Of a DNA stretch of 56,600 nucleotides, positions 6,916 to 38,400 are shown piece after piece. The position numbers and the translations under genes are program-made. How positions within the stretch are numbered: the stretch's first letter is position 1; each line of letters begins with the position of its first letter. Below the pieces are notes generated by a model, which worked only from the letters and a program-made list of their open reading frames with translations, had not been told where the DNA came from and did no database searches. Origin of the DNA: an uncultured Ignavibacteria bacterium (GTDB lineage: Bacteria > Bacteroidota > Ignavibacteria > SZUA-365); contig CAJXVM010000027.1 of NCBI GenBank assembly GCA_913061095.1, forward strand, positions 1 through 56,600, in the 5' to 3' direction.

Positions 6916-6983
6916 AAACCCCTTCCACACATGGACTTCGTGCTAATGTGAACCACACGGAAACCGGAATTTCTCCATTGCCG

Positions 6984-7012
6984 AGTTTATCGATTTCGGG
7001 GATGAATCGCAA
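6984..7012 (-). promoter_or_regulatory. Promoter candidate for the two-component operon
   Basis: Minus strand: TTGCGA (7012-7007), 17-bp spacer, TAAACT (6989-6984). This gives a transcript start near 6977 and a leader of about 60 nt to the ATG at 6915. It differs by one base from the TTG-N20-TANNTT pattern seen elsewhere in the window. Confidence 0.4.
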
Positions 7013-7080
7013 GCTCGCAGTTCGTATTATACAGCTGACAGGCAGCAATCATGAATCCGACAGCGGCGGAAAACAGGCAT

Positions 7081-7875: not shown

Positions 7876-8573
7876 AAAGCTACCAGTATCTCCGGCTCAT
7901 TCTATTCGACATCGACGGGACGCTCATTTCGACGAACGGTCTCGCGCGTCAGGCATTCTCCGAGGCCATCGAAGAGGCACTGGGCCGCGAAAGCATCGCG
8001 AACACGTACGACTTCGCCGGGAAAACCGATCAGCAGATCTACACCGACATCCTGCGGGGATCAAAAGCGGGCGATGAGGACATCGAACGACTGAAAGACA
8101 CCGTATTCGCGGCGTTTTTCCGACGGCTGGAAGAGCGGCTGACTGCCGACAACGTCACGGTGCTCCCCGGCGTACGTGAACTGCTCGCCGCACTCGAGGT
8201 CGAACAGGCTGCCACCCTCGCCCTGCTGACCGGCAACATGATACAGGGCGCGCGCATCAAGCTCACGCCGCCGCAGCTGCTGCCGTATTTCGGCTTCGGC
8301 GCCTTCGGAAACGACGCCTTTCACCGGCACGAGCTGCCGCAGATCGCCGTGGAGCGTGCCTACGACCGCACGGGCGCCACGTTCAAGGCCAAGGACATCG
8401 TCATCATTGGAGACACACCGCATGACATCGACTGCGGACGGCATCTGAACGTACGCAGCATCGGCGTCGCCACTGGAGGGTACACCCATGACCAGCTCGC
8501 CGCACACAAGCCCGATTTCCTGTTCGAGGATCTCACCGACATCGACCGGCTGTTCACCGCGATATTCGACTGA
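7872..8573 (+). CDS. HAD-superfamily hydrolase (phosphoglycolate phosphatase-like)
   Basis: Cytosolic HAD hydrolase of 233 residues with all four motifs: nucleophile DIDGT near the N-terminus, LLTGN as motif II, a lysine in the TFKAKD region, and IIGDTPHDIDCG as the acidic motif. An alpha-helical cap lies between motifs I and II (subclass C1), as in phosphoglycolate phosphatase and beta-phosphoglucomutase. It is most likely a small-molecule phosphatase; the exact substrate is not predictable. It overlaps the upstream dehydrogenase by 4 bp. The only in-frame ATG of the following lectin gene lies 86 bp inside this gene's 3' end. Confidence 0.88.
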   Translation: MKSYQYLRLILFDIDGTLISTNGLARQAFSEAIEEALGRESIANTYDFAGKTDQQIYTDILRGSKAGDEDIERLKDTVFAAFFRRLEERLTADNVTVLPGVRELLAALEVEQAATLALLTGNMIQGARIKLTPPQLLPYFGFGAFGNDAFHRHELPQIAVERAYDRTGATFKAKDIVIIGDTPHDIDCGRHLNVRSIGVATGGYTHDQLAAHKPDFLFEDLTDIDRLFTAIFD

Positions 8574-19260: not shown

Positions 19261-19443
19261 CTGGCGTGATGACGCAGCGTATCGTATTTTTCCCGCGATA
19301 CCTGTATCCCTATCCTTTCATCCGTCATGACGCATTCATCCCGTAATACAACCATCGCTTCTGCGCCTGAAGCGCTTTCCACCCGATCCGGCGATTCCCT
19401 TTTTCCCGCCTGCGCCCGCAGCGCCTCGTTCAGCCGCTGTGCG

Positions 19444-21198
19444 ATGAACAAACAAGTCCGGCACGGCCCCGTCGCGCTCCTGCTCATGCTCCTGCTCCTG
19501 CTCCCATCCCATCCGGCCGTTTCACAGGAGCACGGCTGCGATGTCGCCATCACCGACTGCACCATCATTCATACGCATGAACGCAGCGTGCAGCACGACG
19601 CGACTGTGCTGATCGCCGGTGGGAAGATCGCATGGGTGGGACCGTCGGACGAGGCAGCGATCTCGGGCGACTGTCGCATGATCGACGGACGCGGGAAATA
19701 TCTCATCCCGGGACTCGTTGATGGACATATCCACTTCTTTCAGTCCGGCGGACTGTATACGCGTCCCGACGCGCTCGACCTCCGCGACCGCGTGGCGTAC
19801 ACCGACGAGCTTGCATGGATACGCGCGAATATTGATGACGTCCTGCGTCGCTACCTTCGCTGCGGCATCACGACCGTGGTGGACTGCGGCGGACCGATGT
19901 GGAATTTCGACGTTCGTGAGCAGGCGCGCAGCAACGCCATCGCACCGGACGTATTCCTGACCGGTCCGCTGATCGCATCGTATCAGCCCGACGCGCTGAC
20001 AACGGACGACCCGCCGATCATCCGCGTGAACTCGCCGGAGGAAGCGCGGGAGCTGGTGCGGAAGCAGGCGGCGAAGGATCCGGATTTCATCAAGGTGTGG
20101 TATGTGGTTTCGAAGCGGCTGTCACTGGGACGCGAGGAATTCTATCCCACCATGGAGGCGATCGTGGACGAGAGCCGCAAAGTGGGGCTCCCGGTCTGGG
20201 TGCATGCGACGGAGCTGGAGACCGCCCGCGCAGCGGTGCGCGCCGGCGCCGACGTGCTCGTGCATGACGTGACCGATGCGCCGGTGGATGAAGAATTCAT
20301 CGCGCTGGCACGTGAGAGCGGCGTCATACTCATTCCCACGCTATGGGTATTTCAATCGTACGCGCAGGTGTTCGCAACGCAGTTCGATCCCACACCGGCA
20401 GAACGTGCACTTGCGAATCCGCACGTACTCGGCAGCCTGTTCGAGATGCGGGAAATCCCGCAGGATGCATTGCCGGAGGGCATCCGGAAACTCCGCAATC
20501 GAACAGACCTGCAGGAGCCGAAGCCGGTGCTGCTCGATAATGTGCGCAGGCTGCATGAGGCGGGCGTGCGTATCGCGGCCGGCACGGATGCGGGAAACAT
20601 TGGCGTGCTGCATGGTCCCTCCCTGTTCCGCGAACTCGAGCTGATGCATGAAGCGGGAATGGACGCACACGACGTGCTCATCGCCGCAACGCTGAATGGC
20701 GCCGCGCTGCTCGGACGCGAAGACCGCGCGGGTTCGGTGGAGGAAGGGAAGGTAGCGAACCTGGTGCTGCTCGACAGCGATCCGCTCGCGGACATCGGCA
20801 ATGTCGAGGATATCGCGTTCGTGATGAAAGACGGCAACGTGTATAAGCCGGACGCGCTCATCCCTCCTTCCCCGGCGGACCTGGCGCAGATGCAACTCAA
20901 CGCATACAACCTGCGCGACCTGGAGGCGTTTCTTTCCGTGTACACTGTCGACGTGGAGGTGTACACCTTCCCCGACACACCGATTTATACCGGCATCGAC
21001 GAGATGCGCCAGGTGTACGCTGATTTCTTCGAATCCGCGCCGGGTCTGCACTGCCGTCTTGTCAACCGCATCGACTACGAGAACATGGTCGTGGATCGGG
21101 AAATCGTCACCGGCGTGCCGGGGCACGAAACGGTGGAGGCCGTGGCCATCTACGAGGTGCAGGACGGCCTGATCCGCAGAGTCTGGTTCATCCAGTAA
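19444..21198 (+). CDS. Secreted amidohydrolase fused to a SnoaL-like domain
   Basis: Metal-dependent amidohydrolase, 584 residues, with a signal peptide ending near AVSQ. The metal-binding set is visible: HIH (His95 and His97) in LVDGHIHFF, the Lys in DFIKVWYV, His in WVHATELE, His in LVHDVTD and Asp in AAGTDAGN. This is the pattern of imidazolonepropionase/prolidase-like enzymes. After about residue 475 comes an NTF2/SnoaL-like domain (MQLNAYNLRDLEAFLSVYT ... AIYEVQDGLIRRVWFIQ), an unusual fusion. The ATG at 19444 directly precedes the signal peptide and the ATG at 19327 is less likely. The substrate is probably a cyclic amide, peptide or similar, acting in the periplasm or outside. It is the last gene of the plus-strand block and converges with the alpha/beta hydrolase. 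Confidence 0.88.
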   Translation: MNKQVRHGPVALLLMLLLLLPSHPAVSQEHGCDVAITDCTIIHTHERSVQHDATVLIAGGKIAWVGPSDEAAISGDCRMIDGRGKYLIPGLVDGHIHFFQSGGLYTRPDALDLRDRVAYTDELAWIRANIDDVLRRYLRCGITTVVDCGGPMWNFDVREQARSNAIAPDVFLTGPLIASYQPDALTTDDPPIIRVNSPEEARELVRKQAAKDPDFIKVWYVVSKRLSLGREEFYPTMEAIVDESRKVGLPVWVHATELETARAAVRAGADVLVHDVTDAPVDEEFIALARESGVILIPTLWVFQSYAQVFATQFDPTPAERALANPHVLGSLFEMREIPQDALPEGIRKLRNRTDLQEPKPVLLDNVRRLHEAGVRIAAGTDAGNIGVLHGPSLFRELELMHEAGMDAHDVLIAATLNGAALLGREDRAGSVEEGKVANLVLLDSDPLADIGNVEDIAFVMKDGNVYKPDALIPPSPADLAQMQLNAYNLRDLEAFLSVYTVDVEVYTFPDTPIYTGIDEMRQVYADFFESAPGLHCRLVNRIDYENMVVDREIVTGVPGHETVEAVAIYEVQDGLIRRVWFIQ

Positions 21199-21246: not shown

Positions 21247-22206
21247 TTATTTCCGCTCGAGAAAATCGAGGATGAGCCGGTTCACCTTCTCAGGCCGTTC
21301 GATCTGCAGCATGTGTCCGGTATTCGGAAGCATGTGCAATTCGGCGTTGGGCATCTCCTCCGCTCCGCGCCGCATGATCGGCTCCGTGAACCCGCCGTGC
21401 AGGTATGGATTGGGGATCAGGTTGTCGTTCGCGCCGCCCACGATCATGACCGGCACGGTAATCTTTTCGAGATCCATCCAGACCGGTTCGTCGATCATGG
21501 CGGCAACGGATTGCGAAACGGCGTAGGCGAACCCGCGGAACTCAGGCGTTTTGGCCATGCGTGCGCGCTCTTCCACCATCCATTCGAGCTCGTCGCGCCA
21601 GCAGTAGAAATTCGCCGCGAGGTTCGCGCGGATGTGCTCTTCCGGCGTGTTGATCACGAACTCCGGCGTCACGGATTTCTTCAGCCATTCGCCTTCACCC
21701 TGCTTGAAGCGTTCGATGCCCGCGGGTGAAAGCAGCACCAGTCCCTTGACGCGCGGACATTCCTGCAGCACGAGCGTCAGAGCGATCTGCGCGCCCATGG
21801 AATGACCGATGACGGTAACGGAACTGATGTCGAGATGCTCGAGCAGCGCCTCGAGCGTCCTGGCATAGAATCCCAGTCCGTACGGGATGTCATAGGATTT
21901 TCCGGATTTTCCGTACCCGGGCAGATCCACTGCAATGACACGGAGACCGGCGGCCCGGAGATCCGGCACATTGTATCGCCAGAAGCCCGCGTTACTCGCG
22001 AGTCCGTGCACAAAGAGTACGACCTCACCGTATCCGCCGCTGTCATACCAGGCGAGAGGCACACCGTTTATTTCCCCTGTCTGCATCGAGAAGGTGTAAT
22101 CGATTTCCGAAAACGGCAGCGGAGGCGCGTTGTGATAAAAGCGAGCGGAGGTACAGCCGGATATCATGGCGGCGGTCACGAGGAGAATGATGGAATAGTG
22201 CTTCAT
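21247..22206 (-). CDS. Alpha/beta-fold hydrolase, lipoprotein
   Basis: Hydrolase of 319 residues. The N-terminus ends in a lipobox (MISGC), so it is lipid-anchored. The alpha/beta-hydrolase fold has an oxyanion-side HG (FVHGLASN), the nucleophile elbow GHSMG, the acid in GGANDNLIP and the catalytic His in PNTGHML. It probably acts on an ester or similar small substrate in the periplasm; the substrate is unknown. The ATG at 22206 gives the lipoprotein signal. An upstream in-frame ATG at 22242 lies 2 bp from the preceding stop and would add twelve residues. It is the downstream partner of the outer-membrane protein gene. Confidence 0.87.
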   Translation of the reverse strand: MKHYSIILLVTAAMISGCTSARFYHNAPPLPFSEIDYTFSMQTGEINGVPLAWYDSGGYGEVVLFVHGLASNAGFWRYNVPDLRAAGLRVIAVDLPGYGKSGKSYDIPYGLGFYARTLEALLEHLDISSVTVIGHSMGAQIALTLVLQECPRVKGLVLLSPAGIERFKQGEGEWLKKSVTPEFVINTPEEHIRANLAANFYCWRDELEWMVEERARMAKTPEFRGFAYAVSQSVAAMIDEPVWMDLEKITVPVMIVGGANDNLIPNPYLHGGFTEPIMRRGAEEMPNAELHMLPNTGHMLQIERPEKVNRLILDFLERK

Positions 22207-22244
22207 CGAAAATACCCTGCAGGGAAATGGCACAGTGAACATCG

Positions 22245-23813
22245 TCAGAACATCAGCCAGGCGATACTGGCGAACACCACCCAGGGATCGTCCGGCCGCT
22301 GCTGTGTATTGGTGACGAACGGACTGTCATAAAAGTCACCCGGAACCATGTACGCCATATGAAGGCCGAAGGTCAGGAATACGGCGTAATTGTATTTCAG
22401 TTCGGCATTCACCTCGTATCCCATGAAATCACCGCCGAGCTGGGGACTCTCATTCGCCAGCGCGGCCGCGGCACCAAGCTTGAGCGCAAACTTGTTGGGC
22501 ACCAGGTCGTTGTAATAGTTGAGGAACAGCGCCGACGTCCCGTACCCGAGATTGGAGATATCGTGCACCGCGGAATAGTAGCGGTTGATCACCTGAGCAT
22601 CGGGAAAGAGCAGAAATGCGCGGTGCGAACTGTAGATGCCGACAGGTGATCCCCAGGTATTCCCCGTCACGACGCCGGAGTATTCTCCGTCTGCCGCGTT
22701 ATCCGGATCACCGGTGGTATACAGCGCTTCAACGGCGAGACGGTCATTCATCGTCTGACCGTACTTGTACGAAAGCGAGGCATGCGCGGTGAGTCCCATG
22801 ATGTCGACCGATTCGCTTTCCTGATCGCCCTGCGGCACCGTCTCGATACTGCCGAAATTCAGCATGCCGAGCGCACTGCCCCACCATCGTCCCGCACGGA
22901 AATCACGGTTCCATGCGGTATTCGCGCCGAGCCAGAAGACGTCGGCGGTGTAGCGGGGGCTCGGCAGCAGCAAACGCGCGGCACCGTTGTAATCCGCCAG
23001 CGTGGAATTGAAACCCTGTCCCAATACCGACACCCCGCCGCTTCCGGCGCCGCGGTCACGCACGTACCACGCACTTCCGCCGAGTTCCCAGCGTGGAGCG
23101 AGTTCCGTTTCAAGATCGGCCATCCACAACACAACATCGTCGTCAAGCTGCACCCTGTTTTCATAGAGCTGATAATACGCCAGACGGGCGTCCGTGACAG
23201 GCGACAGATGCATGAAGCTGCTGACGCCCACGGCCTGCGTGCCCCAGAACATCAGCCGGTTGCTGCTGGTCTGATTGGTGAGCAGCGTATTGACATTCGG
23301 ATCCCGCACGTTGTCGAACAGTCGCTGCAGTCCGACCACGACATTCCAGTTCTCAGCCGGACGAAGCTCAAGATTCGCCATGAGCGTCTGGATGTTTACC
23401 GTTCCGCCACTGATGGCGCCGCCGGCATTGTTGCCGACGCCGTAGTTTACATCCCCCCAGGTCATGTCGACCTTGAACAGTCCACGAAATACCGCCGATC
23501 CGTCGAGAATGGAAGGCCGGTAGACGAAGAGCGGCACGAAGCGCGTCGCACCGTACGCGGCCGTCTGCGGAACGGTCGTCGTCGTGTTCGCTCCGAACAG
23601 GCGCCCGATGATCTGTCCGCGGAGAAACTCATTGGTCGGCGCCACGTTCGAGGTCGCGAAACGATTGAACATGTATCCGATGAACTGCAGTTCGGATTTC
23701 GGCTGATCGGGCATGCCGTGCTCGTAATCCTCATCGACCGGATAGTCCGGCATCTGCGCGAGAGCCGGCATGCTGACCAGAAACAGGGAGAGCAGAATGA
23801 TCGTGCGTCGCAT
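22245..23813 (-). CDS. Predicted outer-membrane beta-barrel protein
   Basis: Protein of 522 residues, not assigned to a named family. A signal peptide (cleavage after ALAQ) is followed by long alternating stretches rich in aromatic and polar residues, with repeated patterns such as FRGLFKVDMTWGDVNYGVG and AELKYNYAVFLTFGLHMAY. These are typical of porin-like barrels with many strands. Motifs such as LELRPAENWNVVVGLQRLFDN suggest a family of alginate-export-like or porin-like barrels, but the match is weak. The gene starts shortly after the terminator of the IPT/TIG lipoprotein and probably pairs with the downstream hydrolase. AGGTGG lies before the ATG. Confidence 0.7.
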   Translation of the reverse strand: MRRTIILLSLFLVSMPALAQMPDYPVDEDYEHGMPDQPKSELQFIGYMFNRFATSNVAPTNEFLRGQIIGRLFGANTTTTVPQTAAYGATRFVPLFVYRPSILDGSAVFRGLFKVDMTWGDVNYGVGNNAGGAISGGTVNIQTLMANLELRPAENWNVVVGLQRLFDNVRDPNVNTLLTNQTSSNRLMFWGTQAVGVSSFMHLSPVTDARLAYYQLYENRVQLDDDVVLWMADLETELAPRWELGGSAWYVRDRGAGSGGVSVLGQGFNSTLADYNGAARLLLPSPRYTADVFWLGANTAWNRDFRAGRWWGSALGMLNFGSIETVPQGDQESESVDIMGLTAHASLSYKYGQTMNDRLAVEALYTTGDPDNAADGEYSGVVTGNTWGSPVGIYSSHRAFLLFPDAQVINRYYSAVHDISNLGYGTSALFLNYYNDLVPNKFALKLGAAAALANESPQLGGDFMGYEVNAELKYNYAVFLTFGLHMAYMVPGDFYDSPFVTNTQQRPDDPWVVFASIAWLMF

Positions 23814-23845
23814 CAGACCACCTGTAGAAAAATGGGGAAAGGAAA

Positions 23846-23879
23846 CGGGGCCAAGACCGCCGCTGCGGTCTCAGCCCCG
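23846..23879 (-). terminator. Intrinsic terminator after the IPT/TIG lipoprotein gene
   Basis: A two-part stem: CGGGGC (23846-23851) with GCCCCG (23874-23879), and an inner AGACCGC/GCGGTCT around a 4-nt CGCT loop. On the minus strand it is followed by a T-rich stretch. It begins 14 bp past the stop codon at 23893. Confidence 0.75.
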
Positions 23880-23892
23880 CATCGGATTTGTG

Positions 23893-24672
23893 CTAATCGA
23901 TTTTGACGTAGTTCTGAACATTCGCCGTGCCGATGGCGCCGTTGGCCGTGCTGCCGAAGCCGCCCTCCGGAGTCGGCTTCGTCACGCCGATGTCCGGCTG
24001 TGTCTGCGCAATTTCGTATTGCATTGTCACTTCAGACGCACCTACAGTCACCTCGTAGATGCCCTCGGCGGTAATCGATGCCGGGGATCCCTGGTTCACG
24101 GTGACCATGCGGATGCCGTCGTTGGGCGCCGCCGCACCGCCGTCGGCCGTGACATAGCTGCCGGTCAGCGTGCTGCTCACATCGCTTGAATCCGTCTGCA
24201 CCACGATGTAGGAGCCGTCGGATTTGAACGTCGCTTCGATGCTGCGAATGTTGAACGGCGGATTGTACAGCAGGGGTGCGACGTCAGTGCCTTCCGACAG
24301 CCACTTGCCGACAATGGGATCCTCGACGGTGAACTGCAGTGTCACGATCTTTCCCGTCTGCCGCTGGACGAGGATCGAGGTCGTGCCGATGGGCAGATCG
24401 GCCGGGACACGGATGGTAATTTCAGTATCGGTCATGGATACCGGCGTCACGGCGATACCGCCGAAGGTGATGTTCATCTCGGCGGGATCCGTGCCGAAGT
24501 TGCTGCCCTTGATTCGCACATCGGAGCCGATGGGACCGGAAATGGGCACCATGTCGCTGACCACGATGTCGTAATCCGGTGTCACCGGACCGTTGTCGTC
24601 ATCGTCATCGGAACACGCGACGAACACTGTCATCGCCGCGATCAGGAAAAAAGGAAGAAGACGGAATTTCAT
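23893..24672 (-). CDS. IPT/TIG-domain lipoprotein
   Basis: Lipoprotein of 259 residues. Its signal ends in VFVAC followed by an acidic run (SDDDDD); acidic residues after the lipid-bearing Cys are typical of surface-exported lipoproteins in Bacteroidota. Residues about 35-117 form an IPT/TIG Ig-like domain (ISGPIGSDVRIKGSNFG ... TSILVQRQTGK). The C-terminal half looks like a lipocalin-type barrel (IVGKWLSEGT, then ATFKSDGSYIVVQTD), perhaps binding a small hydrophobic ligand. GAAGGAG precedes the ATG, and a promoter candidate sits just upstream, overlapping the end of the maoC-like gene. The gene is followed by its own terminator, so it is monocistronic. Confidence 0.82.
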   Translation of the reverse strand: MKFRLLPFFLIAAMTVFVACSDDDDDNGPVTPDYDIVVSDMVPISGPIGSDVRIKGSNFGTDPAEMNITFGGIAVTPVSMTDTEITIRVPADLPIGTTSILVQRQTGKIVTLQFTVEDPIVGKWLSEGTDVAPLLYNPPFNIRSIEATFKSDGSYIVVQTDSSDVSSTLTGSYVTADGGAAAPNDGIRMVTVNQGSPASITAEGIYEVTVGASEVTMQYEIAQTQPDIGVTKPTPEGGFGSTANGAIGTANVQNYVKID

Positions 24673-24742: not shown

Positions 24743-25162
24743 CTATGCGCGCCGGGGCATCAGCACGGACTCGCCTTCCGCGACGACGGCACCGTCCTGA
24801 TTCCTGCAGCGGGTGGCGAAACGCACGCGATTTTTATCCTCGTCGCGATGCGCCACTTCCACCTCGGCTGTGATCGTGTCTCCGATATACACGGGTTTGA
24901 GAAAACGAAGCTGCTGTGAAACGTATATCGCACCGGGACCAGGCAGCTGCGTGCCGAGCACCGCAGAAATGAATCCGGCGTAAAGCATACCATGCGCGAT
25001 GCGCTTGTTGAAAATCGTGTTCGCCGCATATACCGCGTTGACGTGCACGGGATTGAAATCACCGGTGATGCCCGCATAGGCATAGACATCATGTTCGCTG
25101 ATGGTCTTGGCAACTGATGCAATGTCGCCGACCTTCATGTCGTAAATGCTCTTACCTTCCAT
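24743..25162 (-). CDS. MaoC-family (R)-specific enoyl-CoA hydratase-like protein
   Basis: Hot-dog-fold protein of 139 residues, the length of PhaJ/MaoC hydratases. The hydratase-2 signature is intact: GDFNPVHVN carries the catalytic Asp35 and His40, followed by AHGMLYAGFIS. The expected reaction is hydration or dehydration of an enoyl-CoA or 3-hydroxyacyl-CoA thioester in the cytosol. It overlaps the acyl-CoA ligase gene by 11 bp and is the last gene of the operon with the KAS III-like enzyme and the symporter. The context points to metabolism of an activated acid, either degradation or as a building-block supply step. Confidence 0.9.
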   Translation of the reverse strand: MEGKSIYDMKVGDIASVAKTISEHDVYAYAGITGDFNPVHVNAVYAANTIFNKRIAHGMLYAGFISAVLGTQLPGPGAIYVSQQLRFLKPVYIGDTITAEVEVAHRDEDKNRVRFATRCRNQDGAVVAEGESVLMPRRA

Positions 25163-26675
25163 CCTGCTTCTGCCTGAGTTGTTTCTTGAGAATTTTTCCG
25201 CTGTCGCTCACGGGCAGCGCGTCCACGAATTCCACGTATTTCGGGATTTTGAACTTCGCGAGATTGCCGCGGCAGTACGCGAGAATGTCGTCGGCACCTG
25301 CCGACGCCCCATCCGAGAGAACGATGTACGCCTTCCCTACTTCGCCCCAGGTGTCATCCGGAACGCCGATTACCGCCGCGTTCTCCACCTCCGGGTGTGT
25401 GCGCAGGAAGTGCTCGATTTCCGCGGGATACACGTTCTCCGCGCCGCTGATGAACATGTCTTTCTTGCGGTCGACCACGTAGAAATATCCCTCCTCGTCG
25501 CGGCGTACTAGGTCACCGGTATGCAGCCACCCGTCACGAATCGTTTCTGCAGTCGCATCCGGATTGTTCCAGTACCCCGGTGTGCAGACAGGACCGCGCA
25601 GGAGCAGTTCTCCGACTTCCCCGCTCGGAAGATCGTTGTCCGCGTCATCCACGACGCGCGTATCAATATAGAAATTCGGGAAGCCAATCGACCCGATTTT
25701 CCGCACCGCATCCTCCTCGTTGAGGGAAAAGACATTCGGCCCGAACTCTGTGAGTCCGTATCCCTGCCGGATGGGAACGCCCTTCTCCTGCCATGCCCGG
25801 ATCAGTGCGACAGGCATCGGCTCACCACCGACGATGGCGTAGCGGACGCTGTCGAGCGTGACCTCCGCGAAGGCAGGGGTGCGGTACATCATGTCCATCA
25901 TCGTGGGCACACCGAAGAGAACGCTGACGTGGAGTGCATCACAGAGACGCAGCACCTGATCGGGATCGAATTTTTTGAGAAGGACAATGTGCGCGCCGCG
26001 ATGCAGGAAGGGCGTCGTGAGGACGTTCCAGCCGCCGGTATGGAAAAACGGCGCGAATGTGAGCGTGACATCCCACTGCACGATGTTGAGCCGCATGCTC
26101 GTGTTGACGGAATTCCAGAACATCATCCCGTGCGTGATGAGCGCACCCTTCGGTGCTCCGGTTGTGCCGGAGGTGTAGAGAATCATGCACGGCGTGTCGA
26201 AATCCGCCTCCTGCGGAACATGCGCATCGTCGAGCTGTTCGTTAAACATCCTGCTGACGAGGCTGTCGGCACCGTCGAAATACAGCAGGCGTGCATCCGT
26301 CTGCGTCGCCGCCTGTCGCTGCGCATCCAGCGCGGCATCCCCGAAATCCCGCTGCACGATAAACAGCCGTGGCGAGCAGTCCTGCAGGATGTGCGCCACC
26401 TCACGCGGAGCGAGACGGTAATTGACCGGCACCATGATGGCGCCCGTTTTCTGGAGGGCGAAAAACAGGAAGATGTATTCCACCTCGTTCGTGGCCAGCA
26501 CCGCGACGCGTTCGCCGCGTTTGAGGGTGAATTCGTCAATGAACACGCGGGCAAGGCGGTTGATGATGCGGTTGGCCGCCTCCCAGGTGAACGTCCTGCC
26601 GGATTCATGATCGGTGATTGCCGGACGATCCGGGGAATACAGTGCCCAGCGCTCGAACCAGTCGGTGCGGATCAT
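25152..26675 (-). CDS. Acyl-CoA synthetase (AMP-binding)
   Basis: ANL-superfamily ligase of 507 residues activating a carboxylic acid through an acyl-AMP to a CoA thioester. Motifs are complete: MILYTSGTTGAPKG (about 165-177), GYGLTEFGP, HTGDLVRRDEEGYFYVVDRKKDMF, GENVYPAEIE-type A8 and a C-terminal SDSGKILKK with the catalytic Lys. The family covers medium-chain, long-chain and aryl (coumarate-type) ligases; motif reading alone does not decide. It overlaps the symporter gene by 4 bp upstream and the MaoC gene by 11 bp downstream, so the set is translationally coupled. The divergent ammonia-lyase makes an aryl-acrylate substrate worth considering. Confidence 0.92.
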   Translation of the reverse strand: MIRTDWFERWALYSPDRPAITDHESGRTFTWEAANRIINRLARVFIDEFTLKRGERVAVLATNEVEYIFLFFALQKTGAIMVPVNYRLAPREVAHILQDCSPRLFIVQRDFGDAALDAQRQAATQTDARLLYFDGADSLVSRMFNEQLDDAHVPQEADFDTPCMILYTSGTTGAPKGALITHGMMFWNSVNTSMRLNIVQWDVTLTFAPFFHTGGWNVLTTPFLHRGAHIVLLKKFDPDQVLRLCDALHVSVLFGVPTMMDMMYRTPAFAEVTLDSVRYAIVGGEPMPVALIRAWQEKGVPIRQGYGLTEFGPNVFSLNEEDAVRKIGSIGFPNFYIDTRVVDDADNDLPSGEVGELLLRGPVCTPGYWNNPDATAETIRDGWLHTGDLVRRDEEGYFYVVDRKKDMFISGAENVYPAEIEHFLRTHPEVENAAVIGVPDDTWGEVGKAYIVLSDGASAGADDILAYCRGNLAKFKIPKYVEFVDALPVSDSGKILKKQLRQKQDGR

Positions 26676-28156
26676 GTTTCAGCCTCCGTGACGGATCGCC
26701 GCAGGGCGCGTCCACCGAGCATCACGAGCATGCTCGCGATGAGCGCACATGCCGCGGTGACCCCGGGATTGTTGTGATACATGGTTATCTCTCCGTAATA
26801 CATGCCGAAGTGCACGATCAGCGCGGTCAGCGACGCGGTGAAGACGAGCCTGGTCTCGGTGCGCTCGCTGAATATGCCGTAGAGCACGGGAACGAACGTG
26901 GCCGCGAAGAGTCCGTAGACGCCGTTCTGCGCGAAAATCGCCACCGAAAGAGAGGGATTCAGGATCTGCTCCCATGACAGCAGCAGCGTTACGGGAGCGA
27001 GCGCGATGAGGAAGAATTTCGCGTAGCGCAGCGACCTGAGCTTCCACTGCTCCGAAGCGGTGACGCGCTCGGGGAGAATGCCCCGCAGGAAATCATTCGC
27101 AAAGATGGAAGACAGCGCGACCAGAATGCCCTCGAGCGTGGAAAAGCCCGCCGAGAGGATGCCGAGACCGATGACGGCGCGGAGGAATGGGGGGAATTCA
27201 TGGACGATATACGTCGCGACCACGACATCGGGTTCAAGCACTTCGCCACCGAGGGACAGACGTGCGAATATCCCGGTCATGAGGACGGCGAAAAACAGGG
27301 TTGCCACGACGATGGCAGTGCCCAGATACCGGTTGACATCTTTCTCCGTGCGCAGGTAGAGGGACTTGGAGATGATATGCGGCTGCAGGATGATTGCGAT
27401 GCCGATGATGAAATTGGCGGCGAAGACTTCGAACCAGTCCCGGAAAAGCAGGCTGTCGGGATTGACGACCGCACCGTAATGCGGACCGACGGCGGACAGC
27501 CGTTCAAAGAAGCCACCGATACCGTCCGTGAAGTACTCCAGGCCGGAGGCGAGAAAGATGACCGCCACCACGATCATGATGAATGCCTGTATGGTGTTGG
27601 TCATGATATGCGCACTCGCGCCGCCGAGCAGGATATAGCCGAAGGTGAAACCGACCACGACCATGAGGGCTGTTTCGATGCTGAGGCCGAGCGTGCTGCG
27701 GAGGACCATCGAGAGTCCGACGACGATGAGCACGAGAAAGGTAATCTGCAGCAGCGCGAGCAGCGAGAAATACACCTTGAGCATCGGGGCGCCGAAACGG
27801 TCACCGATCCACTGCGGAACGGTGATCACGCGCGTCCGGTCGCCGATGCTGCGGAACTTCTTGCTGAACACGACAAGCGCGATGTATATGCCGAGCGGTG
27901 TGGCCACCGCGTACCCGAGCATACCAGACCAGCCATAGAGATAGATGAGGCCCGGATTGATGACAAACGTCGCGGCACTGGTAAGATTCGCGGCGAGCGA
28001 CAGTCCGACGAAGTACGGACTGACGGTGCGCGTGCCGACCGAGAATGACTCCATCGAACGTGCGCGCGTTCTGCTCCAGATCGCCACACCCGCGATGGCC
28101 GCGGCATAGGCGGAAAAGAATATCCATGCATAGAGAGAACCGTCGGGCATCGTCAC
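26672..28156 (-). CDS. Sodium:solute symporter (SSS family)
   Basis: Integral inner-membrane transporter of 494 residues with about 13 hydrophobic segments. It has SSS-family features: a YFVGLSLAANLTSAATFVINPG region in the first helices and GLGILSAGFSTLEGILVALSSIFANDF in the later core. It should couple sodium entry to solute uptake; family substrates include amino acids, carboxylates and sugars. The coupling with an acyl-CoA ligase (4-bp overlap) favours an organic acid. It lies 7 bp downstream of the KAS III-like gene. A GTG or ATG start a few codons either way would not change the call. Confidence 0.9.
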   Translation of the reverse strand: MTMPDGSLYAWIFFSAYAAAIAGVAIWSRTRARSMESFSVGTRTVSPYFVGLSLAANLTSAATFVINPGLIYLYGWSGMLGYAVATPLGIYIALVVFSKKFRSIGDRTRVITVPQWIGDRFGAPMLKVYFSLLALLQITFLVLIVVGLSMVLRSTLGLSIETALMVVVGFTFGYILLGGASAHIMTNTIQAFIMIVVAVIFLASGLEYFTDGIGGFFERLSAVGPHYGAVVNPDSLLFRDWFEVFAANFIIGIAIILQPHIISKSLYLRTEKDVNRYLGTAIVVATLFFAVLMTGIFARLSLGGEVLEPDVVVATYIVHEFPPFLRAVIGLGILSAGFSTLEGILVALSSIFANDFLRGILPERVTASEQWKLRSLRYAKFFLIALAPVTLLLSWEQILNPSLSVAIFAQNGVYGLFAATFVPVLYGIFSERTETRLVFTASLTALIVHFGMYYGEITMYHNNPGVTAACALIASMLVMLGGRALRRSVTEAET

Positions 28157-28163
28157 TCCGTGA

Positions 28164-29162
28164 TCAGGTGTCGTATGACCATCGCAGCGCCATCGCTGCC
28201 ATCGAAATTCCTCCCCCGGATCCGACGAGCATCACCAGGTCTCCCTTCCGGAGTACATGCGCATCGGCCGCATCCGCGATCGCCATCGGGATGCATGCGC
28301 TGCCGGTGTACGCGTAGCTGTCCATGATATTGTGCGCTCGGTCGGCGGGAACGCCCAGCTCTTCGAGGGTCTGGTTGATGCTGTTGATATTGATCTGCGT
28401 AAAAAAGTACCGTCGCACATCGCCGGGCGAGTGGCCGGTGCGCTCGAGGACGGTGCGGACGAGCCGCGGCCAGTGCTGTGGATTCGTCTCCGGCGGAATT
28501 TTCTTCGCGAAACGCAGCAGCGTGTCCCTGCGATCCACGGCCTCATGCGTCGCCGGCATGTATGTGCCGCCGGCGTAGATGCCCATGTAATCGTGGAAGC
28601 TGCCGTCACCGTAGAGCGTGGAAGCGAGGATGCCCTGTTCGTCTCCGACAGCGCTCACCACGGCGGCACCCGCGCCGTCTGCGAACAGTGTCGCGATTTT
28701 GTAGTCGTCGAAGTCCAGATACTTGCTCATGCCGTAAGCTCCGGCGACAAGGATATGCCGGTACTGCTCATCGGCACGAAGGAACTTCCCTGCGGTATCG
28801 AGTGCCATGACAAACCCCGCACAGGCCGTATTGAGATCAAAGAATCCCGCGTTGTGCGCTCCGAGTTTGTGCTGCACGACAGCCGCGGTAGCCGGAGAGA
28901 TATAATCCGGCGTGTCGGTGGCGACGATGATCAGATCGATGTCCCCCACCCCGATGCCCGCCTCGGCGATGGCATCCAGAGCCGCCGGCACCACGAGATC
29001 GGACGTCGCCTGATCTTCGTCCATGAAATACCGCTGCCGAATATTGCGGTTTTCGCGCAGAAAGTCATCGATATTCTCGCCGTGGCGTTCATCGAAAACC
29101 CTGTTTGGGATCGGCTCCCCCGGCGCGAAGAGCCCGGTTCCCGTAATGGCGGCAGATCTCAT
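28164..29162 (-). CDS. 3-oxoacyl-ACP synthase III-like thiolase-fold enzyme
   Basis: FabH/KAS III-like protein of 332 residues. The active-site Cys114 is in the family motif (NTACAGF), and the thiolase C-terminal GSGGGIS loop is present. Aligned by eye with E. coli FabH, the catalytic His motif (PHQAN) reads FTQIN, so His is Thr255. The GNTSAAS motif reads AYTGSAC, so Asn is Tyr285. A decarboxylating Claisen synthase normally needs both residues, so this may instead be an acyltransferase or catalyse another thioester reaction. The gene overlaps the regulator by 4 bp and precedes the symporter, ligase and hydratase, which points to acyl-CoA or acyl-ACP chemistry. Confidence 0.88.
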   Translation of the reverse strand: MRSAAITGTGLFAPGEPIPNRVFDERHGENIDDFLRENRNIRQRYFMDEDQATSDLVVPAALDAIAEAGIGVGDIDLIIVATDTPDYISPATAAVVQHKLGAHNAGFFDLNTACAGFVMALDTAGKFLRADEQYRHILVAGAYGMSKYLDFDDYKIATLFADGAGAAVVSAVGDEQGILASTLYGDGSFHDYMGIYAGGTYMPATHEAVDRRDTLLRFAKKIPPETNPQHWPRLVRTVLERTGHSPGDVRRYFFTQININSINQTLEELGVPADRAHNIMDSYAYTGSACIPMAIADAADAHVLRKGDLVMLVGSGGGISMAAMALRWSYDT

Positions 29163-29677
29163 CCGTTCTCCTTCCTGTTTGTCAGAATGCTTTCTCCATC
29201 GTCATCCCGGGCGGGACCCGCGAGCCAGCGCGCGGAAAACGCACTGAAGAAAGACTCCATCAGTGTATAAAAGCTGTGCATCGTGCGCAGATGCTCACGC
29301 ATGCCATCCAGTCCCTCGCTCTCCGCGGTCATCTGCAGATACTGCTCGGCGATGGCGCGATTCTTCCGCACGGTCTGCATGTTGCGCAGGTGATTGTGAA
29401 AGAAAACATCCGGATCGACGGCATAATAGTTGCGGCGGTGCTCCTCCCCGCCGACCTTGTGAATCAGTCCCTGATCAGAGAGATGCCGCACGGTTTCAGA
29501 GATGGGACCTTTGCTGCGATCGAGGTCCGCGCAGATGTCGTCAAGCGAGAGCGTCTCCGCGCGCGCGAGCAGCAGTCCGAGAATGAGTCCGTCAAGCCGC
29601 TTCCAGCCATACGAAGCATAGAGATTTCCGAACGCCTCGATGAAATCCCTCTGCACTGGAGCAAGTGGCTGAACCAT
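29159..29677 (-). CDS. GbsR/MarR-family transcriptional regulator
   Basis: Winged-helix DNA-binding protein of 172 residues. The N-terminal part matches GbsR-type MarR relatives (AFGNLYASYGWKRLDGLILGLLL), with the helix-turn-helix at about 40-75 (SLDDICADLDRSKGPISETVRHL) and the wing near LIHKVGGEEHRRNYY. The helical C-terminus would dimerise. It is the first gene of the five-gene minus-strand operon and is divergent from the ammonia-lyase gene. A consensus-like promoter and a dyad at the expected start site lie just upstream, fitting autoregulation. The inducer could be the transported acid or a CoA thioester, by analogy only. Confidence 0.9.
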   Translation of the reverse strand: MVQPLAPVQRDFIEAFGNLYASYGWKRLDGLILGLLLARAETLSLDDICADLDRSKGPISETVRHLSDQGLIHKVGGEEHRRNYYAVDPDVFFHNHLRNMQTVRKNRAIAEQYLQMTAESEGLDGMREHLRTMHSFYTLMESFFSAFSARWLAGPARDDDGESILTNRKENG

Positions 29678-29690
29678 ATTTGTTTTATTT

Positions 29691-29709
29691 GGAATATTGC
29701 AAATTTTCC
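29691..29709 (-). promoter_or_regulatory. Dyad operator candidate for the GbsR-like regulator
   Basis: Minus strand: GGAAAATTTGCAATATTCC. The halves GGAA-N-ATT and AAT-N-TTCC match around a 3-bp centre. It lies just downstream of the -10 element at 29713-29718 and spans the expected transcription start, a typical place for repressor binding. Confidence 0.45.
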
Positions 29710-29712
29710 GAA

Positions 29713-29741
29713 AAAATACATGTTTTTGTGATGCCTGTCAA
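29713..29741 (-). promoter_or_regulatory. Promoter of the regulator/KAS III/symporter operon
   Basis: Minus strand: a perfect TTGACA (29741-29736), 17-bp spacer, TATTTT (29718-29713). The transcript start would be near 29705, leaving a leader of about 28 nt before the regulator ATG at 29677. Confidence 0.65.
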
Positions 29742-29762
29742 GCTCACCGGAGGGAGGCGTTG

Positions 29763-29791
29763 TTGCAAAACGGCTGGGTCAATCGTAGCTT
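29763..29791 (+). promoter_or_regulatory. Promoter candidate for the ammonia-lyase gene
   Basis: TTGCAA (29763-29768), 17-bp spacer, TAGCTT (29786-29791). A start near 29798 gives a leader of about 32 nt before the ATG at 29830. This argues against the upstream in-frame start at 29665 and makes the ATG at 29797 possible only as a leaderless start. Confidence 0.5.
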
Positions 29792-29829
29792 ACAGGATGG
29801 ATTTTTCTGCACCACTCCCTGAAGGAACA

Positions 29830-31365
29830 ATGGAAACGCTCTATCTCGATGGAAACTCACTGACACTGGACGACGTGATGGCCGTGACCGAAGGCAGCGT
29901 GCAGGTGCAGCTGGCGGAAGCGGCACTGCCCCGCATGCAGGCATCCCGCGATCTCGTGGAGGAATGGGTCCGTGACAACAAGGTCATGTACGGCATCACT
30001 ACCGGTTTCGGTGAGTTCAGCAACGTGCACATCGGTGCCGATAAACTCGAACAGCTGCAGCACAATCTGATCGTCAGTCACGCCGTGGGCTGCGGCGATC
30101 CCATCCCCCCCGCCATTACGCGTATCCTGATGCTGCTGCGGGCGAATGCGCTCGCGAAAGGACATTCCGGCATCCGCATCGCCACCGTGCAGCAGCTCCT
30201 CGATATGCTCAACCGTGACATCGTCCCGGTCATCCCCTCGCAGGGATCGGTGGGATCGAGCGGAGACCTGGTGCAGCTGGCGCATCTCGTCTGCGGAATG
30301 ATGGGACTCGAGGAATGCTGGACGGCGGAAGGCGGACGGCGGCCGAGCGCCGAGGCACTGCGCGAGGCAGGACTCGAGCCAGTGCGCCTGAGCGCCAAGG
30401 AGGGGCTGGCACTGATCAACGGCACGCAGATGATGACGGCGTACCTGAGCTACACCGTCGTGCGCGCCCGCGCCCTCTCGCGGCAGGCTGACATCGCGGG
30501 CGCCATGACACTGGAGGGATTGCTCGGAACGACCAATGCATGCGATCCGCAGCTGCATGCCGTGCGGCCACATCCCGGACAGCAGTCGGTCGCACGCAAC
30601 ATCCTGCGCCTGCTCGAAGACAGTGAGATCCGTGAATCCCACCGCGAGGGTCATGACGCGGTGCAGGACGCCTACTCGCTGCGCTGCATCCCCCAGGTCC
30701 ACGGCGCATCGCGCGATGCGATCAGCTATGTCGAAGACGTGCTGCTCCGGGAGATCAACGCGGCGACCGACAATCCGCTGATTTTCCCCGAGACGCGGCA
30801 ACTCATCGAGGGCGGCAATTTCCACGGGCAGCCCGTCGCGCTCGCCGCCGATTTTCTCGGGATCGCCATGGCCGAGCTGGCCAACATCGCGGAGCGCCGG
30901 GTCGAACGCATGGTAAACGGCAAGCTCAGCGGACTGCCCCGTTTCCTGACCGAGAAGGGCGGTCTGAACAGCGGACTTATGATCGCCCAGTACACCGCGG
31001 CATCCCTGGTCTCGGAAAACAAGGTGCTCGCGCATCCCGCAAGTGTGGACTCCATTCCCACCTCCGCCAATCAGGAGGATCACAACAGCATGGGATCCAT
31101 CGGTGCGCGCAAGGCCTGGCAGATCATGCGCAATCTCGAAAACGTGATCGCCGTGGAGTTCATGACGGCCGCGCAGGCGCTGGATTTTCATGGTGACATG
31201 GGCAAGGGCCGCGGGACGGGCATCGCGTACCGGATGATCCGTGACGAGGTCGCGCATCTCGACGCCGACCGGCTACTGCACGACGATCTCCGCAGAATTG
31301 CGCGTCTCGTTGAGAAAAATGCTATCTTGGTATCCATTGAACGTTCCATCGGATCTCTGGAATAA
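29830..31365 (+). CDS. Histidine/aromatic amino acid ammonia-lyase
   Basis: MIO-dependent ammonia-lyase of 511 residues, releasing ammonia from histidine or an aromatic amino acid to give urocanate or a cinnamate-type acid. Visible motifs are YGITTGFG (catalytic Tyr54), NGTQMMTAYLS, AYSLRCIPQVHGA, NPLIF, GGNFHGQPVALAAD and SIPTSANQEDHNSMG. The MIO cofactor tripeptide, usually Ala-Ser-Gly, reads Ser-Ser-Gly (143-145, GSVGSSGDLVQLAH). The selectivity region LIVSHAVG has Ser-His, as in histidine ammonia-lyases, but the Glu of HutH's FHAEP is Gln here. Substrate is therefore uncertain (His, or Tyr/Phe). The start at 29830 follows GAAGGA and gives the family N-terminus. It is divergent from the regulator operon and 28 bp from the CBS gene. 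No other hut genes are present in the window. Confidence 0.88.
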   Translation: METLYLDGNSLTLDDVMAVTEGSVQVQLAEAALPRMQASRDLVEEWVRDNKVMYGITTGFGEFSNVHIGADKLEQLQHNLIVSHAVGCGDPIPPAITRILMLLRANALAKGHSGIRIATVQQLLDMLNRDIVPVIPSQGSVGSSGDLVQLAHLVCGMMGLEECWTAEGGRRPSAEALREAGLEPVRLSAKEGLALINGTQMMTAYLSYTVVRARALSRQADIAGAMTLEGLLGTTNACDPQLHAVRPHPGQQSVARNILRLLEDSEIRESHREGHDAVQDAYSLRCIPQVHGASRDAISYVEDVLLREINAATDNPLIFPETRQLIEGGNFHGQPVALAADFLGIAMAELANIAERRVERMVNGKLSGLPRFLTEKGGLNSGLMIAQYTAASLVSENKVLAHPASVDSIPTSANQEDHNSMGSIGARKAWQIMRNLENVIAVEFMTAAQALDFHGDMGKGRGTGIAYRMIRDEVAHLDADRLLHDDLRRIARLVEKNAILVSIERSIGSLE

Positions 31366-31393: not shown

Positions 31394-31975
31394 ATGAGCA
31401 CGGATTCTCCTCACGATATGGCGCTCGATCCAGGCGACGAGCAGAATATTATGGCCCTCGAAGTTTCCGACCTGCGCAGGTCGCTTCGCACACTGATGAA
31501 GCCCGCGATCACGGTCGATATTGACACACCCATCCGCGACGCGGTGCACCTGATGCAGACGAAGCGCATCGGCTGCGTGCTCGTCACCAGCCACCGAAAG
31601 CTGCTCGGCATATTCACGGAACGGGATGTGCTGAAGAAAATACTCGGCAGTTCTTTCGATCTGCGCACGACTCCCACCTCGGAGGTCATGACGATAAATC
31701 CACAGGCGCTCAACGAGAGCGATACCATCGCCTATGCCCTGAACTTCATGGACCTCGGCGGGTACCGGCATATCCCCATCGTCAACGAACTGTTCGAGCC
31801 CGTGGGACTTGTCTCCGTCAAGGATATCGTCTCGTATCTCGTACAGCATTTCGCCGACGAGGTGCTCAACCTTCCGCCCCACCCTCTCACGATCTCAGGT
31901 GAGGACGAAGATATTCCCGTGCCCGAAGACGGGCTCTCGGATGAGGGGCTGGATCACGAGGAAGAGGAAGGCTGA
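31394..31975 (+). CDS. CBS-domain protein
   Basis: Protein of 193 residues with two tandem CBS domains (about 45-100, DAVHLMQTKRIGCVLVTS; and about 110-165, DTIAYALNFMDLGGYRHIPIV) and an acidic C-terminal tail. CBS pairs bind adenosyl ligands (AMP, ATP, SAM) and regulate partner proteins; it has no catalytic domain of its own. The start at 31394 follows AGGAAAG. It is probably co-transcribed with the ammonia-lyase, 28 bp upstream. The partner is not evident. Confidence 0.85.
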   Translation: MSTDSPHDMALDPGDEQNIMALEVSDLRRSLRTLMKPAITVDIDTPIRDAVHLMQTKRIGCVLVTSHRKLLGIFTERDVLKKILGSSFDLRTTPTSEVMTINPQALNESDTIAYALNFMDLGGYRHIPIVNELFEPVGLVSVKDIVSYLVQHFADEVLNLPPHPLTISGEDEDIPVPEDGLSDEGLDHEEEEG

Positions 31976-35405: not shown

Positions 35406-38400
35406 TTACTTGGACATCAGCATCTTCTTCGTGCTCGTGAAGGCTGCGGCACCGTTGGTCGGCACTGCATCGAGACGATAGAAGTAGGTACCGGACGGAA
35501 CATCGATGCCGTTCATGTCCACGCCCTTCCAGTTGATCGAGTAGCTGCCGGCATCCTGCGTCTGGTTGACCAGCATGGCGACCTCACGGCCGAGCACGTC
35601 GGTGATACGCAGCGTGACGACACTGTTCTCGGACAGCGTGTAGGAAATCGTCGTGGAGGGGTTGAACGGATTCGGATAGTTCTGCTCGAGCACAAAGGCA
35701 GCCGGGGCGGCTTCGTCGACGACGACACGGCCAGGCTTGCGCATACTCGGCACCGTGTAAATGATACCAAGCGAGCCCTTGCTCTCGCTCAGGAAGCGGA
35801 TGTCTCCGTATTCACTGCCCACAGCGATCGGGAGAACGTTCGCGAACGAGGCACCCGAAGATTTGCTCTTCTTCGCGGCCTTCGTCGGGGCAGAGACCTT
35901 CAGATTGGCATCGCTCAGATACTTGAGCAGATCTTCCTTCGACTCGACGGGCGGAATGACAACGGGATCGACCGTTTTCACCGTAGTCGTGGGATCCACA
36001 TTGATGTCGGGAGCGATGTCCGCGGTGGCGTAGTTGACGTCCGCCGCACGTTCGATACCGTAGAGCTGATCGATCTTCTGCACGGTCGGTCCGAGCTTGC
36101 TGTCTTTCTCGTACACGAACGCAACATCGTTGCCTCTGGCAATGGCGGCGCTCAGTTCGCTCTGAACCGACGCATTCATCGAGCCGAAGAAATAGATGGT
36201 GCTGTTGTCGAACGAGGAAAGATCGCTGTTTGCGACATTGACGAGAACCGGATCCTGGCCACGGTCACGAATCACGTCGCGAAGCTCGTTGAGCCTGCCG
36301 AGATCGGCATTGTCGTCATACGCGATGATCGGAGCGGCCTCGACATAGAGTTTGTACTCGATCATGTCGTTGACCGGGTTCTGATCATCCGGATTCCGCG
36401 TGAAGAAGGCCTTCACTTTGTAGATACCGCCGTTCTGCGGCGTCCACTCTTTCAGGTTGATCGAGATCGTTTCGTAGCCGGCGATGCCGTTGATCGGGGC
36501 ATTCGACGCATTCACCTGGTCGCTGTAGATGAGGTTGTTGCCCGCATCATAGATACCGAGATAAATGTTGAAGCCCTTGGTCTGACTGTTCTGCGTGGAA
36601 TTGGCCGTGATGTTCACGGTCGGAGTCACGCCGATTCCAACACCAATGGCCTCGGTCGGTGAATTCTGGCTTGAGAAACGCACGTAGTTGACGGAGAAGT
36701 CATTCTTTTCAGTCATGTTCACGCGCATGGGAAGCACGTGGTTGCTGTACGCCTGCGCATCGGCAACGTTTTCCCAGCCAAACTGCGGCGGTGCCGTGTT
36801 GTCCGTGCTGAAGTACATCATGCGGGTGCCGAGAACGTCATACGGACCGAGCGGACCAAACGTATCGCCAAAGAGATAATCCCAGTACCGGTCCTGAAGG
36901 GCCGGAATCGCACCAAAGGTGTAGGGATAGATCCACAGGTCGTCATTGCCGACGTTGTCGAGCATGATGATGTACGTCCCCTGCGGCAGATTCACCGAAC
37001 CGCCGGCGTTGAGATCGGGATTCCCGTTTCCGTCGACCGGATAGATCGGGAACGTGCGCCAGTTGCCCTCGATGTAGGCATCCATATTGACCGTCGTAGA
37101 ACGCGCGACGAGAGTCTGCGGTCCGCCGGTCAGGCCGTTGGAGGCTGACCAGATGCTGATGCGGCAGTCACTGCGCGGCGTCACGATGTTGGCTTCATCG
37201 AATTTGTAGTCGATGCTGGTCAGTGTCGTGTACGGATTGCGGAAGAGCGTAAAGCTGACACCGTAGCCGCGGCCGGCAAGCATGGGAACACTCGTCGGAT
37301 AGAACGGCTGATCCGGATCGACGTACTTGCTCCAGGTGACGACTTTGTCGCCGTGATAGGACATCGAGGTCGGAGTGACATGATATTCAGGCGACTCGAA
37401 CTCGTTGTCGGCAAGATCATCGTCGTAGCGTGCCTGCATGAGGTTCACGCGGAAGTTATAGGTCCCCTCCGGCACGAGGCTCACCCATGCGTTGACGAAG
37501 TTGCCCGCTTCCGTGGGATCCTCGTCCAGCGCACCGGGATAGGCATACGGACCGTGGTAGCTGATATCGTGGTAGTTGTTGTTCTGATCCACGGCCATGA
37601 AACGCTCGGTGCCGACGGCATCGCGCGGATACATCTTCTGCGTGTTCCAGAACACCAGGATCGGATCCTGCGCCTTGGCATGCTCCATGTACGGCGGCAC
37701 TGCGCCGATCACGTCAGTGAGATACCCAAACGGCGTTCCTTCGATGACACCCGGGACGGGCACACCGTGGAGCGGACCGACAAATCCCTGATGACGATCG
37801 GGATCGGGCACTTCGCCGCCACCGACGATGTACTCGACCTGCAGATAGGTCACACGAATATGGCCGTAAAAGTCCGGGGGATTGGTGTTGTCGTTGAATG
37901 CATCATAGACCGTCACATACCAGAGTCCGTCGACGGGCAGACCGTCAAGGGAGCTGAGCGGCTGCATCGGCTGGAACGGACCGGTAAAGATCGGCGGCTG
38001 CGCGGGTGCGGGAGGCACGCCGACGCCGTTGTCGATCTGCGTGAACGCGAAGTCGTCGAAGACCACGCGATCATATCCTGTCGCGTCGGAAATCGTCGGG
38101 GAGATGCATGCCGCGAGCCGGACACCACCGAAGGCACCGGACGGTCCCTGTAGTGAGGAAGCGACAGCATTATTCTGACCGGAGGGCCAGCCGCCGATGT
38201 ACTGCTGCGCCTTGTAACCGGCGTCACCCGGGGAAGGAGGCGGCGGCAGCGGGAGATTCAGGTCCGCATCGGGAACGCGGCCGAAGTAAATCGCGATATC
38301 CTCGGTCAGACCGGCAACAGGCGACGCGGGATAGGTCGGCTCGACCGTAATGGTGATGCGGAAGCGGCCGGCGGGATACCCGTTGGCATCCTGACCGACA

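Follow-up and report, generated by a model that had tools for sequence, protein, structure and literature searches.

A conserved operon centred on an atypical KAS III-fold enzyme and its HutH-like ammonia-lyase neighbour in an uncultured Ignavibacteria bacterium

Within a 56,600-nucleotide stretch of DNA from an uncultured Ignavibacteria bacterium (contig CAJXVM010000027.1, positions 1 to 56,600, assembly GCA_913061095.1; analysed as a whole and hereafter called the window), an operon containing a gene for a ketoacyl-ACP (acyl carrier protein) synthase III-like (KAS III-like) enzyme faces an ammonia-lyase gene, raising the question of whether the two form one pathway or only lie side by side. 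An earlier note on this DNA proposed the former, with the lyase supplying an aryl acrylate or urocanate to the operon under a shared regulator. We lean, though only a little, towards a different answer, in which the operon is a local, substrate-inducible module for carboxylic-acid uptake and coenzyme A (CoA)-dependent catabolism, possibly of (R)-3-hydroxy acids, and the HutH-like ammonia-lyase (LYASE) is an unrelated neighbour. The locus is of interest chiefly for this widespread operon and for the unusual KAS III enzyme that it encodes. The lyase-to-ligase account drawn from adjacency was plausible yet misleading, and it is corrected here.

Organization of the operon

The operon consists of eight minus-strand genes extending from window position 29677 down to 21247. 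The first gene, REG (29159–29677), encodes a GbsR/MarR-like winged-helix regulator (Pfam HTH_27, 2.4e-7; MarR_2) that scores 33.9 bits against the NCBIfam CudC model of the GbsR family, for which the cut-off is 218, and is accordingly described as GbsR-like only. It is followed by KAS3 (28164–29162), a KAS III-fold enzyme recognized by domain search, residue alignment and a structure model, and by SSS (26672–28156), a sodium:solute symporter (PF00474, 2.9e-38) whose closest curated models, PanF/PutP, are matched under their cut-offs (TIGR02119, 103 bits versus 328). LIG (25152–26675) encodes an AMP-forming acyl-CoA ligase (PF00501, 9.5e-86) with feruloyl-CoA synthetase 8wev as its best solved relative (2e-110), and MaoC (24743–25162) encodes a hotdog enoyl-CoA hydratase of the PhaJ type (PF01575, 1.7e-25; motif GDFNPVH). 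REG and KAS3 overlap by 4 bp, LIG overlaps SSS, MaoC overlaps LIG, and KAS3 and SSS nearly touch.

These five genes and the lyase are all present in the order and on the strands given by the earlier note, but the operon does not end at MaoC as had been assumed, since three further genes continue on the same strand. The first encodes a TIG lipoprotein that ends in a small beta domain (23893–24672; PF01833, 2.5e-10; lipobox VACS; position conserved). The second, OMP (22245–23813), encodes a predicted 18-stranded, AlgE/Occ-like outer-membrane barrel assigned by alignment, structure model and Foldseek. The alignment shows 64% mean column identity, and the top Foldseek match is AlgE (3e-15), followed by Occ channels, at 10% identity and a model pLDDT (predicted local distance difference test) of only 63, so that a resemblance to AlgE and carboxylate channels is suggested at the level of the model. 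The third encodes an alpha/beta-hydrolase lipoprotein (21247–22242; PF00561, 1.6e-30; lipobox ISGC; nucleophile elbow GHSMG), with its start probably at the ATG at 22206.

The order KAS3-SSS-LIG-MaoC-TIG-OMP-hydrolase is identical in the window family and in a Gemmatimonadota contig, and the arrangement therefore exceeds chance. In the window and its relatives, TIG, OMP and the hydrolase gene follow MaoC in this order, which recurs in Ignavibacteriota, Chlorobiota, Calditrichota, KSB1 and Gemmatimonadota. The proposed acid-processing set of regulator, KAS III-like enzyme, symporter, ligase and MaoC is thereby borne out as a real, conserved unit. As the earlier note had observed, a polyketide ketosynthase set is missing from the operon, which corresponds to no named pathway.

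Separately, a strong hairpin of 16 pairs lies between the TIG lipoprotein and OMP genes (window 23845–23880) and represents a possible attenuator or RNA-stability element.

Active site and phylogeny of KAS3

KAS3 adopts the fold of FabH, the model (pLDDT 85) matching it with a Z score of 45 at 30% identity, and retains the nucleophile as Cys114, whereas the FabH His is replaced by Thr255 and the FabH Asn by Tyr285. The description "KAS III-like" thus stands for the fold and the Cys and fails for the other two residues. The Cys-Thr-Tyr combination occurs in 116 of 116 KAS3-clade rows with an aligned residue at each of the three positions (rows being loci, with some genomes counted more than once), while genuine FabH proteins from the same search carry Cys-His-Asn. 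In a 98-protein tree, the KAS3 clade stands apart from FabH with a support of 100/100, and the genomes searched also encode a genuine FabH elsewhere. KAS3 agrees with a decarboxylating, FabH-type KAS III in its fold and disagrees with it in the Cys-Thr-Tyr triad. The sole annotated record examined bears the name "ketoacyl-ACP synthase III", which is probably wrong because the residues required for that reaction are missing.

When one genome per species was scanned, at least 547 KAS3 relatives were returned, the best 80 of which belong mostly to Bdellovibrionota and Ignavibacteriota-related lineages. No description of the KAS3 cluster was found in open-licence literature on KAS III variants, Bdellovibrio acid clusters or Ignavibacteria operons, and the module, widespread in bacteria, is apparently undescribed. 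A bolder proposal, offered tentatively and with the balance of judgement against it, is that KAS3 defines a new functional class of KAS III-fold enzymes: its Cys-Thr-Tyr site would catalyse Claisen or retro-Claisen (thiolase-like) reactions of CoA esters without decarboxylation, as part of a widespread acid-degradation pathway found in predatory bacteria as well as in six or more other phyla.

The KAS3 cluster in other lineages

The cluster is present in at least seven phyla. Among 64 KAS3 loci having at least 4 kb on each side, the most frequent companions are LIG (60 loci), the alpha/beta hydrolase (58) and a FabG-like short-chain dehydrogenase/reductase (SDR; 57), followed by an importer of the SSS or major facilitator superfamily (MFS) type (31), OMP (27), REG (27), MaoC (5) and the lyase (4). 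MaoC and the SDR never co-occur in these loci, and the genomes of the window family contain no orthologue of the cluster SDR, the best match (47%) adjoining fabH.

The importer and the activating enzyme vary around this core. An MHS-type MFS protein takes the place of the symporter in one genome (G053), and a different MFS protein does so in Chlorobiota and some Ignavibacteria. On a Chloroflexota plasmid (L178; CP069395.1, 38569–59519), the gene order is SDR, KAS3, CoA transferase, SCP2 thiolase, DUF35/OB-fold protein, hydrolase and LIV-type ATP-binding cassette (ABC) importer, with the ABC importer and its binding protein substituting for the symporter and the CoA transferase for LIG. Importers and activators that are unrelated but equivalent, grouped with an unchanging set of KAS3, SDR and hydrolase, suggest the pattern of an acid-utilisation module; an exchange among SSS, two MFS types and an ABC importer, together with that of ligase for CoA transferase, therefore fits acid import and activation.

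Three further loci stand out. At L163, a TonB-dependent-receptor-like gene (6243–8366) is inserted between the SDR and KAS3 genes and is possibly another outer-membrane import route. Two KAS3 orthologues without the usual neighbours (L150 and L159) occur in metagenome-assembled genomes labelled Pseudomonadota and group within Bdellovibrionota in the KAS3 tree, a placement that may reflect either transfer or contamination.

Proposed function and competing explanations

Gene content, conservation, active-site residues and the palindrome described below are read from the sequence. The scheme that follows goes beyond them by inference in five respects: its catabolic direction, the ester or lactone as source of the acid, the chemistry at the (R)-3-hydroxy level, the reaction of KAS3 and the action of REG as a repressor. 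The exported alpha/beta-hydrolase lipoprotein would release an acid from an ester or lactone; the AlgE/Occ-like barrel, aided by the TIG lipoprotein, would let it cross the outer membrane; the Na+ symporter would take it in; and the AMP-ligase would convert it to its CoA ester. MaoC here, and the FabG-like SDR in almost every other lineage, would act on this ester as an (R)-3-hydroxyacyl-CoA. PhaJ-type MaoC proteins and FabG/PhaB-like SDRs both use (R)-3-hydroxyacyl-CoA, and the guess about the substrate follows from this shared preference. KAS3 would perform a non-decarboxylating acyl-transfer or thiolase-like step using its Cys without the His and Asn, its sequence favouring neither a thiolase-like nor an acyltransferase role. 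Finally, the GbsR-like REG would act as a repressor of the operon, binding a palindrome that lies immediately 5' of the REG start.

Several points weigh against this scheme. The exchange of MaoC for the SDR was probably a single evolutionary event, since all five MaoC loci fall in one KAS3-tree clade, composed of the window family and a Gemmatimonadota contig (L110). In most Bdellovibrionota loci an adjacent transporter or OMP was not found, and linked import is therefore not obligatory for the cluster core. Most KAS3 loci have no classical thiolase alongside, and we know of no precedent for a KAS III-fold thiolase lacking His and Asn. Moreover, the 18 strands of the barrel are predicted at modest confidence, and a polyhydroxybutyrate (PHB) depolymerase adjoins the cluster in just 1 of 50 genomes.

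The Bdellovibrionota clusters, often without a transporter, are in keeping with a biosynthetic operon, in which the ligase, the SDR or MaoC, and KAS3 would build an acyl product such as a lipid, ester or signal, the AlgE-like barrel would export it and the lipoproteins would handle it outside. The KAS III fold of KAS3, the FabG-like SDR in most lineages and the fact that AlgE, the nearest fold match of OMP, is an exporter point the same way. Nevertheless, the residues for decarboxylation are absent throughout the KAS3 clade, no ACP was seen in the cluster, and four kinds of importer, one of them an ABC type with its binding protein, substitute for one another; we consider this explanation unlikely.

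A narrower form of the catabolic scheme holds that the module degrades polyhydroxyalkanoate (PHA) or other (R)-3-hydroxyacid esters from other organisms. It draws on the FabG/PhaB-like SDR, the PhaJ-type MaoC, the thiolase present in some loci, the exported hydrolase and the Chloroflexota CoA transferase found in place of the ligase, as well as on one Bdellovibrionales contig in which an exported PHB-depolymerase-family esterase (L104:14015-15025) and a symporter stand beside KAS3-LIG. That contig, however, accounts for the only genome of the 50 with such an enzyme beside the cluster, and the window hydrolase scores below the cut-offs of all PHA-depolymerase models. A PHB/PHA depolymerase was on this count rejected as a cluster component, and the narrower form appears distinctly unlikely.

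At the centre of this conserved cluster, which is probably catabolic and occurs in Bdellovibrionota, Ignavibacteriota, Chlorobiota, Calditrichota and others, stands an enzyme labelled "ketoacyl-ACP synthase III". Identifying its substrate would show which carbon source predators have in common with uncultured Ignavibacteria, and might uncover a new thiolase-superfamily reaction.

Predicted operator of REG

The gap between REG and LYASE exists as reported, although it measures 146 bp (29677 to 29824) rather than 152 bp. Across the intergenic regions of eight genomes it contains one invariant palindrome, ATTTGGAATATTTCAAAT-like, which reads ATTTGGAATATTGCAAAT in the window (29687–29704, strand not assigned) and is the predicted REG operator. 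It is located between the REG ATG and a promoter-like site of the operon, TTGACA-17-TATTTT (29713–29741, minus strand), which shows 10 of 12 matches in a scan that was overall no richer than shuffles. A second promoter-like site, TTGCAA-17-TAGCTT (29763–29791, plus strand), recognized by eye from the alignment, precedes LYASE about 60 bp from the predicted operator; three relatives (G001, G002 and G003) carry a similar TTGGAA-17-TAGNTT.

The operator motif lies close to REG, SDR or thiolase (THL) starts in 32 of 43 REG-bearing loci, window included; this gives 69 site-to-start assignments, and the background is 0.11 sites per kb. The motif is fuller in Ignavibacteria (AACGTTTGAAATTTTTCAAACGTT), and the REG loci without it belong mainly to an MFS-type subgroup with a diverged regulator. 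As a TTTGAA-N4-TTCAAA-type palindrome directly 5' of gene starts, it has the features expected of a GbsR-type operator: the Bacillus subtilis GbsR operator consists of A/T-rich inverted repeats near the transcription start with half-sites 4 bp apart (PMC7396694), and the predicted REG operator is alike in placement and half-site spacing.

The 4.6-Mb window genome contains two sites at no more than one mismatch, the REG site and C2:321183. A second regulon gene was sought through the motif and rejected, since at two mismatches the motif occurs no more often in the genome than a reversed-pattern control. A regulator shared by the operon and the lyase, as had been suggested, is not indicated, because the operator keeps its REG-side place in lyase-free loci and LYASE has its own promoter-like site.

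The ammonia-lyase neighbour

LYASE (29824–31365, plus strand) scores 678 bits against TIGR01225, above the cut-off of 539, and 353 bits against FlxA, the flexirubin tyrosine ammonia-lyase model, under its cut-off of 700. Its likely start is the ATG at 29824, since orthologues match from residues 2–6 of the frame. The protein has the Ser-His switch of histidine ammonia-lyase (HAL) together with Tyr53, Asn195, Gln277, Tyr280, Arg283, Phe329 and Glu414 (Pseudomonas putida HAL numbering), all identical, and the role of such residues, including the Ser-His substrate switch, has been described for Geobacillus kaustophilus HutH (PMC11432326). The tripeptide, read earlier as the usual Ala-Ser-Gly that forms the 4-methylideneimidazole-5-one (MIO) cofactor, is in fact Ser-Ser-Gly, constant in all orthologues examined; MIO could still form in LYASE, the central Ser and the Gly being retained.

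The window genome also contains, scattered, hutU (C37), hutI (C3) and ftcD (C15), and in a class-level relative (G108) the LYASE orthologue adjoins ftcD. The model score, the HAL residues and these genes lean towards a His-type lyase with the hut genes elsewhere in the genome.

Synteny separates LYASE from the operon. LYASE stands next to the operon solely in the window genome and seven relatives, all in genera g1 and g3; the 4 of 64 well-flanked loci that carry it come from the window family, and none of the loci outside this family does. In two relatives (G004 and G008), LYASE is retained facing a lone TIG lipoprotein gene (L035:3072-3854; L082:7478-8284) while KAS3 and the rest of the operon are absent, so that the operon was probably lost and the TIG gene is probably a deletion remnant. 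A CBS-domain gene (31394–31975, plus strand) travels with LYASE and not with the operon, and within the window family LYASE is accompanied by this gene and a TPR gene.

A single linked pathway, in which the operon would activate, hydrate and transfer an aryl acrylate or urocanate made by LYASE, could appeal to the adjacency retained in these eight genomes, to the TIG-LYASE remnants that suggest an old adjacency within the family and to the feruloyl-CoA synthetase relationship of LIG, but it is highly improbable given the confinement of that adjacency to one family, the keeping of LYASE where the operon was lost, the HAL switch and Glu414, the low FlxA score, the hut genes and the operator on the REG side. 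A role for LYASE in the pathway as a flexirubin or aryl-acrylate starter enzyme was likewise rejected, on the grounds of synteny, the HAL residues, the hut genes and where the operator lies. LYASE is thus probably a HutH-like neighbour outside the operon pathway, and the earlier note's proposal that it feeds the operon is not upheld: of the refuting conditions named in that note, the two that could be checked, on conservation beside the operon and on a His-type lyase with hut genes elsewhere, both lean against it.

A second lyase paralogue, 40% identical to LYASE, lies on the hutU contig (G000:C37:5587-7086; L033). It carries Ala-Ser-Gly (Ala-Cys-Gly in many relatives) and Asn-His at the switch and may be a different MIO enzyme. 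As a candidate for the sole HutH it was rejected: it is on the hutU contig, but has Asn-His instead of Ser-His and a hutH score under the cut-off; either paralogue may serve histidine.

Other features of the window

Convergent with the operon, an exported amidohydrolase with a C-terminal stretch that by eye is SnoaL-like is encoded at 19327–21198, with a counterpart in the same place in one relative (G001). Beyond LYASE, at 35406–39176, lies the gene for a large secreted protein with an NYPNPFNP-type C-terminal sorting motif.

Comparison with known systems

The closest parallels to the operon as a whole are in Acinetobacter. The hca (hydroxycinnamate) and dca (dicarboxylate) loci of this genus are acid-uptake catabolic operons that likewise combine a MarR-type regulator, an exported esterase, a carboxylate porin, an inner-membrane transporter and a CoA ligase at a single locus. 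The DcaP porins are treated in PMC12338516. In contrast to the hca and dca loci, the KAS3 operon has no acyl-CoA dehydrogenase or hydratase/lyase, and the KAS3 cluster has a KAS III-fold enzyme as its constant partner, varies in transporter type and occurs in other phyla.

The OleABCD olefin/beta-lactone pathway superficially presents the same four kinds of enzyme, namely a thiolase fold, an alpha/beta hydrolase, an ANL ligase and an SDR. However, OleA keeps a Cys-His-Asn active site, with which the Cys-Thr-Tyr of KAS3 does not fit, and the KAS3 cluster pairs an exported lipoprotein hydrolase with a FabG-like SDR; an OleABCD identity was rejected on the active site.

LYASE shares with the HutH proteins of P. 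putida (1gkm) and G. kaustophilus (PMC11432326) all the substrate-binding residues compared and the Ser-His switch, its orthologue group differing in having Ser-Ser-Gly instead of Ala-Ser-Gly. KAS3, in turn, shares fold and catalytic Cys with FabH, from which its whole clade departs by the His-to-Thr and Asn-to-Tyr replacements. The KAS III-like acyltransferases CerJ, ChlB3 and DpsC have the same fold, likewise diverted from decarboxylative condensation, and retain the catalytic His (PMC9573744), whereas in the KAS3 clade, which lies away from antibiotic genes, Thr and Tyr replace the FabH His and Asn.

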